Shown here: piece by piece, positions 3,443 to 29,855 of the stretch
How the letters are laid out: each line of letters begins with the position of its first letter
How positions within the stretch are numbered: position 1 is the first letter of the stretch
NCBI GenBank assembly: GCA_030680175.1
Contig: JAUXWO010000093.1
Coordinates: 1 to 36,210 of the forward strand
Direction of reading: 5' to 3'
DNA: 36,210 nucleotides
Source: Vicinamibacterales bacterium
GTDB taxonomy: Bacteria; Acidobacteriota; Vicinamibacteria; Vicinamibacterales; UBA2999
The notes under the pieces: model-generated
The model's input: the letters and a program-made list of their open reading frames with translations, nothing else
What the model was told of the DNA's origin: nothing
Databases searched by the model: none
Made by a program: the position numbers and the translations under genes

Positions 3443-3470
3443 AGTCTAGAACGGAACGGGCGACGGACAA
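3443..3470 (-). promoter_or_regulatory. Candidate sigma70 promoter for the ttcA operon
   Basis: Reading the minus strand, TTGTCC (3470-3465) and TAGACT (3448-3443) are separated by 16 bases, matching 4 of 6 consensus bases in each box. Transcription would start about five bases before the ttcA ATG at 3431, giving an almost leaderless message. The -35 box lies inside the right part of the CACGAAGG repeat arm, so the repeat may donate promoter sequence. Confidence 0.45.
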
Positions 3471-3629
3471 ACACGAAGGTCACAAAGTAACGAAGGACGC
3501 ACGAAGCACGGGGAATTCAACACGAAGGCCACGAGGGAAATAGACCACGCCAGCTGTGGGCCGGCGTACGTGAGTTGTCTGATTTCGTGCGTCTCTTCGT
3601 GGCCTTCGTGTCCTTCGTGTTTATCCGTG
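3463..3629. repeat. CACGAAGG-armed inverted repeat, copy A
   Basis: The left arm (3463-3506) is built of CACGAAGG-like units running into ACGGACAAACACGAAGG. The right arm (about 3582-3629) is its imperfect reverse complement, ending CACGAAGG/CTTCGTG units and TTTATCCGT. The centre of about 75 bases differs from that of copies B (29708-29834) and C (33712-33849). It fills the gap between ttcA and the glycosyltransferase and ends six bases before that gene's stop codon. No coding frame of note is present. It may work as a terminator or a REP-like structure. Confidence 0.85.
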
Positions 3630-3634
3630 ATCTC

Positions 3635-24814: not shown

Positions 24815-24832
24815 GCCGCGGGAGATCATTTG

Positions 24833-25810
24833 ATGACGCGGACCCTGATCACGCGGCGGCTGACGACGATCGCCGGCGCACTGGCGCTGGTCGTGGCGGC
24901 CGGCTGCGGCGCGCCCGCCGAGCGCACGTTCCTGACCATCGCCACGGCCGGCACCGGCGGGGTCTACTACCCGCTCGGCGGCGCACTCGCCCAGATCTAC
25001 AGCGCCGCCCTCCCCGGCGTAAACGCCTCGGCGCAGTCGACGGTCGGCTCGGTCTTCAACGTCCAGGCGGTCCAGCAGGGCCGTGCCGACGTCGCGTTCA
25101 CGATGGGCGACATCGCCTGGTTCGCCTACGAGCAGGGCACGGACTCCGACCCCACGCCCCACCGCAAGCTGCGCACGCTCGCGGTCCTGTATCAGAACAC
25201 GGTGCAGATCGTGGCGCGGCGCGACGGCCCGCTCCACACCATTGCCGACCTGCGCGGCCAGCGCGTCGGCGTCGGCGCGCCCGGCAGCGGCACCGAGGTC
25301 TCGGCGCGCGTCGTGATCGAGGCGCACGGCCTGAGCTATGCCGACGTCAGGCCCGACTACCTCTCGTTTGCCGAGGTGGCGGCCCAGATGCAGGACCGCA
25401 CCCTTGACGCCGGCGTCGTCACCGCCAGCTTCCCCGTCTCGGCGATCACCGACGCCAGCATGACCGTCGGCGTGCGCCTGCTGCCGGTGAGCGACGAGGC
25501 GCTGGCGCGCATCCGCGCGCAGTATCCCTTCTTCACGCGCGTGACGATCCCGGCCGGCACCTATCGCGGCCAGGACGAGGACGTGCCGACCGTCGCCGTC
25601 GAGAACCTGCTGGTCGTCAGCGAGGACCTCGACGAGCAGCTCGCCTACGACCTGACGCGCCTCCTCTTCGAGTCGCTCGAGGAGCTCGGACGGACGCACG
25701 TCGCGGCGAAGGAGATCGACGTAGCCGATGCGGCGACCGCGCCCATCCCGCTGCACCCCGGCGCCGAGCGGTACTACCGGGAGCGCGGCGTCCTGCCCGC
25801 CGTGCCATGA
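24833..25810 (+). CDS. TAXI-family TRAP transporter solute-binding lipoprotein
   Basis: A 325-residue periplasmic binding protein of the TAXI branch of tripartite ATP-independent transporters. Cys25 (VVAAGC) suggests a lipid anchor. The family signature IATAGTGGVYYPLGGALAQI (37-56) and QQGRADVAFTMGDIAW (~82-97) are present, as is the hinge GQRVGVGAPGSGTEV. TRAP systems use ion gradients to take up organic acids or amino acids; the ligand cannot be predicted here. ATG 24833 is chosen over a TTG three bases earlier because of its Shine-Dalgarno spacing. The stop overlaps the permease start (ATGA), so the two are made together. Confidence 0.93.
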   Translation: MTRTLITRRLTTIAGALALVVAAGCGAPAERTFLTIATAGTGGVYYPLGGALAQIYSAALPGVNASAQSTVGSVFNVQAVQQGRADVAFTMGDIAWFAYEQGTDSDPTPHRKLRTLAVLYQNTVQIVARRDGPLHTIADLRGQRVGVGAPGSGTEVSARVVIEAHGLSYADVRPDYLSFAEVAAQMQDRTLDAGVVTASFPVSAITDASMTVGVRLLPVSDEALARIRAQYPFFTRVTIPAGTYRGQDEDVPTVAVENLLVVSEDLDEQLAYDLTRLLFESLEELGRTHVAAKEIDVADAATAPIPLHPGAERYYRERGVLPAVP

Positions 25811-27747
25811 TCGCCACGCTGCCGCGACTCGCGACCCTCCTCGCGATCCTGCTCGGCGTCTACCACCTGTACACCGCGGTCCTCGGCGCGCCGGTGGCGC
25901 TTGTGCACCGGGCGATCCATCTGGGCGGCATGACAATGCTGGCCTACTTGATGATCGCGGCCTCGGAGCGCACCTCCAGAGCCGGGCGCGTGGCCGCCCT
26001 CGCCACGGGGATCCTCGGCACCGCCGCCGCGCTCTACCTCATCGTGTCGTTCCGCGACCTCATGACGCGCGTGGGGGCGCTCTCCCCGCTCGACCTGGTA
26101 ATGGCGACCCTGGCCGTCCTCGTCGTGATGGACCTCGCGCGGCAGATGCACGGCTGGGCGCTCACGATCACGACCAGCGCCTTCGTCGTCTACGGCGTCG
26201 CGGGGCCGTGGATTCCCGGCTTCATGGGCCATCGCGGCTACGCGCTGCCCGAGATCCTCGAGTTCCTCTACACGACGACCGAGGGGCTGTTCGGCGTGCC
26301 GCTCCAGGTCTCGGCCACCTACATCGCCGTCTTCATCCTCTTCGCCGCCTTCCTGGAGCGCTCCGGCATCATCGGCCTGTTCCACGACCTGGCGTTCGCC
26401 CTCGCGGGGCGGTCGGCCGGCGGCGTGGCCAAGGTGGCGGTCGTCTCGAGCGCGCTCATGGGCACGGTGAACGGCAGCGGCCTGGCCAACGTGACCACGA
26501 CGGGCGCGGTGACGATCCCGCTCATGAAGCAGAGCGGCTTCGCGCCGCACTACGCAGCGGCCGTCGAGGCCACGGCCTCGATGGGCGGCCAGATCATGCC
26601 GCCCGTGATGGGCGTCGCGGCCTTCCTGATGGCCGAACGCCTGGGCGTGCCGTACACCCGCATTGCTCTTGCGGCCATCGTGCCCGCCCTGCTCTACTTC
26701 TTCGCGACCGGCGTGCAGATCCACCTCCACGCGAAGCGGCATGGCCTGGTGCCGCCGCCCGACTCGAAGGCGCGCCGGCTGGGCGACGTCCTGCGCCGCG
26801 ACGGCTACCTGCTGCTGCCCGTGCTCGCGCTCTTCGTCGTGATGCTGCAGGGCTACTCCCCGGTGTATGCCGCGGTGGGCAGCATCGCGGCCAGCCTCCT
26901 GCTCTCATGGGCCGCCTCGCTCGTGGTCGCGCTCGGCACGCCGGGGGATGGCGCGACGCGACTGGCCGCGTTCCGCGCGGCCGCCGACGCACGAGGCGCC
27001 TCGCTCACCGGCATCCTGGGCTCGCTCGACGCCGGCATGCGGCGCACCGTCAGCGTCGCCGCCGCCTGCGCGGTGGTCGGGATCATCATCGGGATCGTGA
27101 CGCTGACGGGCGCCGGCCTGAAGCTCTCGAGCGCGATCATCATGGCGGCCGGCGAGCGGCTCCCCGCCACGCTGGTGCTGACGATGTTCGCGTGCTTCCT
27201 GCTGGGGATGGGGCTGCCGACGATTCCGACCTACATCATCACGTCGACGATGGCCGCGCCGGCGCTCCTCAAGCTGGGCGTCGACCCGCTGGCCGCGGAT
27301 TTCTTCGTGATGTACTTCGGCGTGCTGGCCAATCTGACACCGCCCGTGGCGCTGGCCGCCTACGCCGCGGCCGGCATCGCCGGCGCGAGTCCGCTGCGCA
27401 CGTCGATCCAGGGCATCCAGCTTTCGGTGGCGGGCTTCCTCGTGCCGTACATCTTCGTCTACTCCCCGATCATGCTCGGCGTCGGCTTCGAGCCGTGGGA
27501 GATGCTCGGTGTGACGGTGACGGCCACGGCGGGGGTGTTCGCGCTCGGCGCGGCCATGGAAGGGTACCTCTTCCGCGTGACGACCTGGTACGAGCGCGTG
27601 CTGCTCCTGGCGGCCGCGCTGGTCCTGATCGTGCCCGGGGTGTTCACCGACGCCATCGGCGCGGTGCTCTTCGCGGTAATCGTTGTGTCCCAACGACGAC
27701 GGCCCGTCCTGCCGGCGACCGTCAGCACGCAGGCCGAGTCTGCCTGA
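25807..27747 (+). CDS. TAXI-type TRAP transporter fused permease (DctQ-DctM like)
   Basis: A 646-residue permease fusing the small DctQ-like membrane subunit to the large DctM-like one, usual for TAXI systems. Around 16 or more hydrophobic segments are seen. The DctM core has SALMGTVNGSGLANVTTTGA, EATASMGGQIMPPVMGVAAF and GMGLPTIPTYIITSTMAAPA, and NLTPPVALAAYAAAGIAGA in the second half of the internal repeat. It pairs with the binding protein through a four-base overlap. Transcription probably ends within the large nested palindrome that starts 11 bases after the stop. Nothing in the sequence is broken; the substrate is unknown. Confidence 0.94.
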   Translation: MIATLPRLATLLAILLGVYHLYTAVLGAPVALVHRAIHLGGMTMLAYLMIAASERTSRAGRVAALATGILGTAAALYLIVSFRDLMTRVGALSPLDLVMATLAVLVVMDLARQMHGWALTITTSAFVVYGVAGPWIPGFMGHRGYALPEILEFLYTTTEGLFGVPLQVSATYIAVFILFAAFLERSGIIGLFHDLAFALAGRSAGGVAKVAVVSSALMGTVNGSGLANVTTTGAVTIPLMKQSGFAPHYAAAVEATASMGGQIMPPVMGVAAFLMAERLGVPYTRIALAAIVPALLYFFATGVQIHLHAKRHGLVPPPDSKARRLGDVLRRDGYLLLPVLALFVVMLQGYSPVYAAVGSIAASLLLSWAASLVVALGTPGDGATRLAAFRAAADARGASLTGILGSLDAGMRRTVSVAAACAVVGIIIGIVTLTGAGLKLSSAIIMAAGERLPATLVLTMFACFLLGMGLPTIPTYIITSTMAAPALLKLGVDPLAADFFVMYFGVLANLTPPVALAAYAAAGIAGASPLRTSIQGIQLSVAGFLVPYIFVYSPIMLGVGFEPWEMLGVTVTATAGVFALGAAMEGYLFRVTTWYERVLLLAAALVLIVPGVFTDAIGAVLFAVIVVSQRRRPVLPATVSTQAESA

Positions 27748-27757
27748 GAGATCGGTC

Positions 27758-28003
27758 CACGGATTACGCAGATGACGCAGATTGGCTTGCCGCCGACGCG
27801 TCCCGCGGTTGCCGGTCAACGACCGGCAACGAGGGCGTGACCAGCACCGGCGGAGCGAGAGCCTCGTCCGTTCACCCCGTCGGCTCTCGCTCCACCGGCG
27901 CTGGTCACGCCTTGGCGGCCTCCGGCCGCCACCGCGGGACGCGGCTCCACCAGCCTCACCCCACCGAGCTAATTGACATCTGCGTTATCCGCGTAATCTG
28001 CGG
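27758..28003. repeat. Nested palindrome folding as a four-way junction
   Basis: Outer arms 27758-27785 and 27971-28003 (GGATTACGCAGATGACGCAG and its imperfect complement) enclose P2 (27795-27808 with 27932-27945, 13 of 14 paired). Inside P2 are three hairpins placed almost end to end: Pa 27809-27829 (TTGCCGGTC-AAC-GACCGGCAA, perfect), P3 27834-27863 with 27882-27911 (28 of 30 paired, 18-base loop) and Pb 27913-27931 (TGGCGGCC-TCC-GGCCGCCA, perfect). Only 0-4 bases separate the helices. It fills the 287-base gap between the TRAP permease and the GlpD-like gene. No coding frame is supported. Confidence 0.92.
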
Positions 28004-28020
28004 ATGATCTAGCGCGCGGC

Positions 28021-29707: not shown

Positions 29708-29834
29708 CGTACAAACACGAAGGACACGAAGGCCACGAAGGACGCGCACACTCTCGGGATCCGGTTGCGCAACGGGATACCCTGAATGACTTTCGTCCGT
29801 CTTCGTGGCCTTCGTGTCCTTCGTGTTTGTACGT
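29708..29834. repeat. CACGAAGG-armed inverted repeat, copy B
   Basis: The left arm 29708-29745 (ACGTACAAACACGAAGG followed by further ACACGAAGG units) and right arm 29795-29834 are near-perfect reverse complements. The centre contains GGGATCCGGTTGCGC, sharing GGATCCGGTT with copy C. It lies between the converging GlpD-like and asnB genes, 21 bases from the asnB stop, and could end transcription of both. Confidence 0.9.
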
Positions 29835-29855
29835 GATCCGTGATCCGTTGTTCGG

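Follow-up and report, generated by a model that had tools for sequence, protein, structure and literature searches.

The palindrome between two genes in the analysed window (the whole stretch of 36,210 nucleotides of a Vicinamibacterales contig) is probably the stripped-down form of a poorly understood kind of mobile element; we infer its mobility. Our results make it likely, with good confidence, that this copy is a non-autonomous relative of elements associated with GxxExxY genes. The whole account, namely a non-autonomous copy of a dispersed mobile-type element with a DNA-level core and GxxExxY action, is given a probability of about 0.6. The sequence-only reading had offered a structured RNA, a cruciform and a non-autonomous mobile element as possible natures of this palindrome. 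The last is best supported, by many copies, common arms and fuller relatives with a GxxExxY nuclease gene; a cruciform is compatible and is our preferred working state, and the structured RNA found no support from wobble pairs.

The element (251 bp) is located between the stop of the DctM gene (25807-27747) and the start of a GlpD-like gene (28035), both on the plus strand, and is composed of the following features:

27755-28005, no strand assigned: whole element in its long form, without GxxExxY gene, delimited by arms and fold.
27755-27783, plus strand: outer 5′ arm, made of 9-bp units of the ATTACGCAG / ATGACGCAG type, with 24 further mapped inverted pairs in the genome.
27797-27807, no strand assigned: 5′ strand of helix P2 (CGCGTCCCGCG).
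27808-27830, no strand assigned: Pa, the alpha hairpin (GTTGCCGGTC-AAC-GACCGGCAAC; CCGGTC..GACCGG), with alpha found in 18 of 18 parsed copies.
27832-27913, no strand assigned: P3, the long copy-specific hairpin, with an apical motif of the CGAGAGCC / CGTGAG type seen in other copies.
27914-27930, no strand assigned: Pb, the beta hairpin (GGCGGCC-TCC-GGCCGCC).
27933-27943, no strand assigned: 3′ strand of helix P2 (CGCGGGACGCG).
27977-28005, minus strand: outer 3′ arm, an inverted copy of the 9-bp-unit arm.

Within the window cloverleaf, 0, 1, 0 and 2 bases remain unpaired at the junction, around which P2 forms 11 pairs (27797-27807 with 27933-27943), Pa 10 of 10, P3 29 of 32 (Watson-Crick) and Pb 7 of 7; the outer arms are paired at 15 of 17 positions (27758-27774 with 27977-27993), or at 23 of 29 in a longer register. 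The minimum free energy of positions 27740-28020 is -184.8 kcal/mol versus a shuffled mean of -116.6 (sd 4.7; z -14.55), and none of 200 shuffles matches it. The near-perfect four-way junction of four helices inside repeat arms, first proposed from the letters alone, is thus confirmed by the fold (z -14.6); its anatomy stands, and the exact pair counts had to be corrected by 1-2 pairs per helix. The size and the four-helix plan exclude a terminator, in agreement with the earlier claim that the structure goes beyond one. In addition, no tRNA was found in the window, and a phage origin was rejected, with no blastn match among 50,697 phage records. As a side observation on the upstream neighbourhood, an NMT1-like binding protein and DctM (24830-27747) form a TRAP transporter pair of the TAXI type.

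Twenty distinct long cloverleaf copies, over 16 contigs, are present in this genome, which settles the earlier question of a second copy and explains at least 20 intergenic-type palindromes of a single genome. From regions retrieved by blastn with the element and by an arm-pattern search, 25 inverted arm pairs were mapped, window included, further arms at contig ends being left out of this count. A parser seeking a junction with a long middle helix in the folded copies identified one in 18 of these 25 arm-bounded copies, i.e., in 17 of 17 pre-listed as long and in one of eight pre-listed as short (C107, which turned out to be long); two extra long copies (C71:200086 and C137:13577) were provided by the covariance model. 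Parsed elements measure 224-334 bp (three exceed 300 bp), with 0-4 unpaired bases in each junction gap and a P3 span of 74-91 nt in 18 of 18. Each of the 18 parsed copies has the alpha hairpin to one side of P3 only, as GGTC..GACC or, in a single case, CCAGTC..GACTGG, and opposite to it a different hairpin, for the most part built around GGCC (by reading). The alpha/beta order varies between copies, and such flips are expected if the element lies in either orientation. As for the seven arm pairs without junction, five contain a single alpha or beta hairpin and no P3, and two contain neither clearly. Note that reading was the basis for recognising single-hairpin copies, for the alpha/beta order and for the arm motifs of other genomes. 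In one copy (L077, G000:C107:28511-28830), the P2 box is expanded, with nine repeats of CACGTCCCG.

The pairing of the cloverleaf is kept via double-sided Watson-Crick changes, orthologous copies included. P3 letters are copy-specific and yet paired: the arms are 37% identical between copies and show 46% pairing across copies, versus 89% within copies on a rigid register, a mean lowered by two copies with a one-base shift; a gapped comparison of the 18 copies of this genome gives Watson-Crick pairs at 548 of 582 positions. In alignment A1, built from 16 parsed long copies out of 18 after exclusion of C12 and C130, whose stems are longer, 25 of 38 pairs vary on both sides, with 89 double-sided versus 8 one-sided cells. 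None of 500 shuffles attains any of the five covariation measures, and all six register slides are far lower; since the paralogues are related, the shuffles alone do not provide a probability, but the slides point the same way. The check for compensatory changes suggested from sequence alone has therefore revealed strong covariation in P3.

A search of 148 other genomes from the order with covariance model R1, likewise anticipated, detected the cloverleaf in five (6 of 149 with this one), to which G033 adds a cloverleaf among the fetched loci. R1 counts are lower bounds, as the model misses the cores of loci L142 and L331; the genome count moreover used stricter filters and missed known copies. 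By reading, a genome from a different family (G105) carries the cloverleaf within other arms, of the CATGAAGG kind, and a GAGAGC / TGAGTC kind of motif at the apex of P3 is repeated across genomes. One copy, at C30 of G024, is located upstream of a gene, and the orthologous site was compared within the genus (7 of 9 genomes). The full core is found in G024, G029 and G116, inverted relative to the flanking genes in G116 as compared with G024 and G029 (L257 vs L256, L258), whereas P3 is lost in G117 and G113, a lone arm occurs in G033, and the G001 contig stops in the gene. The cloverleaf can thus also decay, by P3 loss. The P3 of G024 and of G029 have 22 identical positions per arm (33- and 32-column alignments) and both copies are still paired; the structure thus outlasted a change of its letters at a single site. 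Such orthologous copies let one ask how the arms of a palindrome change together. The proposed comparison of flanks for empty sites gave no clean one: at the orthologous position, which belongs to another genus than the window copy, partial losses and the lone arm were found, and among 58 relatives, which comprise no genome of the same genus, DctM was matched at E 1e-150 only in G040, with a different neighbour.

The question of whether the cloverleaf works as RNA or as DNA is addressed by the kind of pairs that change. An RNA under selection should accept G.U on its own strand more readily than A.C. Over 40 copies, P3 contains 1195 Watson-Crick pairs, 24 G.U, 25 A.C, 11 transversions and 11 gaps, with G.U versus A.C at 10 vs 15 in this genome (18 copies, strand normalised) and 14 vs 10 elsewhere (22 copies, strand arbitrary, which could hide a bias). 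Single loci can be lopsided; as an example, the two cores of G033:C9 display G.U 0/A.C 3 and G.U 4/A.C 0, respectively. The large excess of double-sided changes over wobble pairs, together with equal numbers of G.U and A.C, favours a structure kept in DNA over RNA; with the strand normalised only for 18 copies, the G.U/A.C balance is an argument against RNA rather than a proof. A structured RNA, for which the cloverleaf would be the non-coding RNA of the element, working with or against GxxExxY (as a guide, a retro-intermediate or an antidote), would fit the very stable fold, the strong covariation, the apical P3 motif recurrent across genomes (by reading) and the frequent location of the cloverleaf directly beside a GxxExxY gene. 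However, the rarity of wobble changes (8 one-sided vs 89 double-sided cells), the equality of G.U and A.C in P3, the core inverted relative to its flanking genes in G116 and the lack of an Rfam match at gathering score make this explanation unlikely in our view. Indeed, Rfam 15 yielded no match at that score for the window and seven relative loci, the sub-threshold matches being mostly microRNA-type hairpins, together with M23 and D12-methyl. These data suggest that it is in DNA, whether extruded as a cruciform or folded from a single strand, that the pairing is of importance or undergoes correction, and a DNA-level function of the cloverleaf core is slightly favoured.

The fuller relatives, which come from the same order, consist of inverted arms of 9-bp units, one or two cloverleaf cores by the arms, and a GxxExxY gene between them. 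The order arm-core-gene-core-arm is directly readable in L120, L344 and L351; a GxxExxY gene and a cloverleaf are found in one element in L120, L244, L247, L344 and L351, and the arm type of the window occurs with a GxxExxY gene in L132, L120, L244, L344 and L351. Cores lie on both sides of the gene in L344 (G024:C13), L351 (G116:C22), L120 (G033:C9), L141 (G040:C32) and L153 (G110:C332), and on one side in other loci.

This association was observed from both directions. Among 17 distinct cloverleaf places in other genomes, three are located 34, 39 and 166 bp from GxxExxY genes, against an expectation of 0.04 such neighbours within roughly 1 kb (P about 1e-5). Conversely, among 33 GxxExxY loci (the sample and two loci from outside it), R1 (E <0.01) detected a core at L136, L141 (both sides) and L165, and none at the control loci (PIN 0/30, IVP 0/35). 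A model-free scan found long hairpins within 450 bp at 5 of 31 GxxExxY loci, 0 of 35 IVP loci and 0 of 30 PIN loci (Fisher P 0.003), and all five fold as the cloverleaf junction (by reading); a sixth locus, L165, comes from R1, leading to a total of 6 of 31. Most of the sampled GxxExxY loci thus lack the cloverleaf, namely 25 of 31 in the order, a set of best-scoring rather than random loci, which speaks against the proposed link. When every listed GxxExxY gene of two genomes was checked, the cloverleaf was observed at 3 of 7 (G024) and 2 of 8 (G116). Note that most GxxExxY and IVP loci represent the top match of their genome, from up to 30 of 146 genomes searched, that the PIN controls were drawn from 60 genomes, and that for the hairpin scan and the arm score used below, gene ends were approximated for some loci cut by a contig end. 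Across phyla, R1 matched none of 80 GxxExxY loci and the hairpin scan 6 of 80; one of these, L331, is a cloverleaf, from Acidobacteria bacterium 13_1_40CM_65_14, with DNA identical to L142 over 3348 bases, which suggests that the order of the window lies within the Acidobacteriota, and the hairpins beside GxxExxY in L279, L281, L282, L305 and L332 (other phyla) consist of arm repeats, with no cloverleaf.

In this genome, the window element has no GxxExxY gene inside, and the sole GxxExxY match (L109, G000:C22:45504-45851) sits on another contig, between CACGAAGG arms, with no significant cloverleaf (R1, 18 bits, E 0.3). Since this gene belongs to another arm family, the present copies may have no helper here or may be old, and trans-mobilisation by GxxExxY in this genome is no more than a possibility.

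The two cores of one element usually have a common P3. Indeed, the P3 identity of paired cores reaches 0.91-0.98 in four of five two-core loci (L344, L351, L141 and L153; 0.54 in L120), compared to a mean of 0.55 and a maximum of 0.67 between loci (40 pairs); P3 is thus element-specific but common to both ends. By reading, the two cores are in direct orientation in L344, L141 and L153 and inverted in L351. These observations suggest that P3 marks the two ends of an element as partners, and the matched P3 may be needed for the pairing of ends or may be a mere record of core duplication.

Compensatory change could also arise by arm-to-arm copying free of selection. A passive palindromic repeat, dispersed on a single occasion by a transposase of some sort, with arms kept perfect solely by template switching and no present function, would explain near-perfect Watson-Crick palindromes with copy-specific letters, which fit arm-to-arm correction, as well as the observed decay through P3 loss. 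It nevertheless leaves unexplained an architecture that does not vary, the recurrence of the apical and alpha motifs, the P3 span kept at 74-91 nt in all 18 parsed copies and the cloverleaf flanking GxxExxY genes on both sides, and we consider it improbable.

The gene inside the fuller relatives encodes a member of the GxxExxY family (TIGR04256 / PF13366; Pfam PDDEXK_3), a protein family of unknown function that matches both models and that the papers listed, in the portions available, do not connect with arms or with a structured core. GxxExxY genes occur in many bacterial phyla and some archaea (80 loci). In alignment A4 (62 sequences, from 55 of the 80 across-phyla loci and 7 of the order), E39, Y42, D78, E88, K90, Q102 and Y106 are invariant, including a D..ExK..QxxxY core, and the protein model based on these sequences has a pLDDT of 93.9; an earlier model (pLDDT 61) and its fold matches were set aside. 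Foldseek matches are weak (best E 0.0019), and the fold matches include Cas4, lambda exonuclease, Hjc and restriction enzymes. With VIA-align, the best match is Cas4 SSO0001 (Z 9.9 over 100 residues, rmsd 4.2) and the remainder have Z of 7.6 or less, the archaeal Holliday resolvase Hjc having a middling score (Z 7.0). The D..ExK core and the matching fold, both present in the predicted GxxExxY protein of the fuller relatives, support its prediction as a PD-(D/E)XK nuclease; such similarity is no demonstration of function or of a specific substrate.

Regarding the mechanism, our view is that DNA is the form in which the element is moved or maintained. The arms would bound the unit, the cloverleaf would extrude as branched DNA, and a Cas4/Hjc-fold nuclease supplied by fuller members, in cis or in trans, might recognise or cut this branched DNA, which is the least certain step; the segment between the arms would then be moved, copied into another arm, or corrected. 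Analogies are provided by parvovirus ITRs, the folded attC sites of integrons and four-way-junction cutting in R2 retrotransposition. That GxxExxY acts on the junction is put forward as a hypothesis, and a doubtful one at present. If true, this would be a mobile element that works through a Cas4/Hjc-like nuclease and a four-way junction in folded DNA, and the conserved branched DNA at gene ends offers a concrete candidate substrate for GxxExxY. It is conceivable, at rather less than even odds, that these elements form a new mobile-element class without known transposase, with inverted arms of short tandem repeats, terminal cloverleaves whose matched P3, specific to each element, would make them the recognised ends, the small nuclease GxxExxY as mover and many stripped-down copies, the window copy among them.

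Among known systems, MITEs are the closest in general plan, being short, non-coding and dispersed, with terminal inverted repeats and gene-bearing fuller relatives. The window element is non-coding, has terminal inverted repeats and, with 251 bp, falls within the MITE size range of 70-300 bp given in the available part of PMC3733652; its 20 long copies are dispersed over 16 contigs at unrelated sites. It differs from MITEs by its arms, which are tandem 9-bp units, by its four-helix core with a copy-specific P3, and by a partner gene that encodes a predicted PD-(D/E)XK nuclease rather than a known transposase. Of the two traits by which we define the GxxExxY-associated element, the window element displays the cloverleaf inside arms of 9-bp units and lacks the GxxExxY gene. 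REP/BIME sequences and the TIR repeats of Y1 transposases are also palindromic intergenic repeats, and a REP is defined as a palindrome of 20-40 bp with a GTAG or CGTC tag at one end (PMC3733652, available part). In contrast, the present element is much larger (251 bp), has a cloverleaf core, and carries CGTC in the P2 of many copies but within a symmetric helix. An origin as a REP/BIME-type element moved by a Y1 transposase (RAYT or TIRYT) would be in line with the three Y1_Tnp genes of this genome and with the TIR-flanked Y1 transposases reported in Acidobacteria (PMC3733652, same part). However, none of the three Y1 loci has a cloverleaf or paired arms of these types, so that no Y1 gene is associated with the element in this genome, and parsed elements of 224-334 bp are far above REP size; this origin was rejected as very improbable. 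The inverted GGGAATC heptamer arrays of Xanthomonas resemble our arms as intergenic short-period tandem repeats, often in convergent inverted pairs, but are 7-bp G-rich units read as G-quadruplexes; the available part of PMC4692102 reports no general link of these arrays to mobile elements and contains no mention of a cloverleaf core or of a GxxExxY gene. Among the matches listed from the open-licence PubMed Central literature, judged by title and abstract start, neither the element nor any association of such arms with GxxExxY or IVP genes is described.

The arms have a wider distribution than the core. An automatic score for inverted arms with a 6-12 bp period identified them at 14 of 31 GxxExxY loci, 27 of 35 IVP (PF05635) loci and 1 of 30 PIN loci (Fisher P versus PIN of 1e-4 and 4e-10 for GxxExxY and IVP, respectively), with rates in mismatched flanks of 12%, 9.5% and 1.4%. 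Arms are thus found at both GxxExxY and IVP genes and the cloverleaf only at GxxExxY, so that only the cloverleaf is specific to GxxExxY. IVP was rejected as a cloverleaf partner, with no cloverleaf at any of 35 loci and arms of its own instead. Across phyla, arms were scored at 23 of 80 GxxExxY loci versus 8.3% in mismatched flanks, many with CACAGAGA-like units; the arms therefore seem wide and the cloverleaf narrow in distribution. The two arm families are linked by L247, where a cloverleaf and GxxExxY lie inside CACGAAG-type arms, and this locus, together with L109, supports the earlier suggestion of a design common to the window arms and the CACGAAGG family. Arms with units of 7-8 bp may also define a sister class, which would carry a protein of the IVP family.

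Several minor observations concern these other repeats. IVP genes (four-helix-bundle 23S rRNA family; L101-L105, L166-L195) are often located between inverted arms whose short tandem units vary by locus. The window itself contains second-family elements at 29709-29838 and about 3464-3632, with inverted TACAAACACGAAGG / CACGAAGG arms around a small core, and 15 more second-family places display another common core (L082-L096). Finally, L125/L129 (G001:C10 near 127971) contains a long array of larger units, each composed of CGCAGATGA-type arm repeats, followed by inverted ones.
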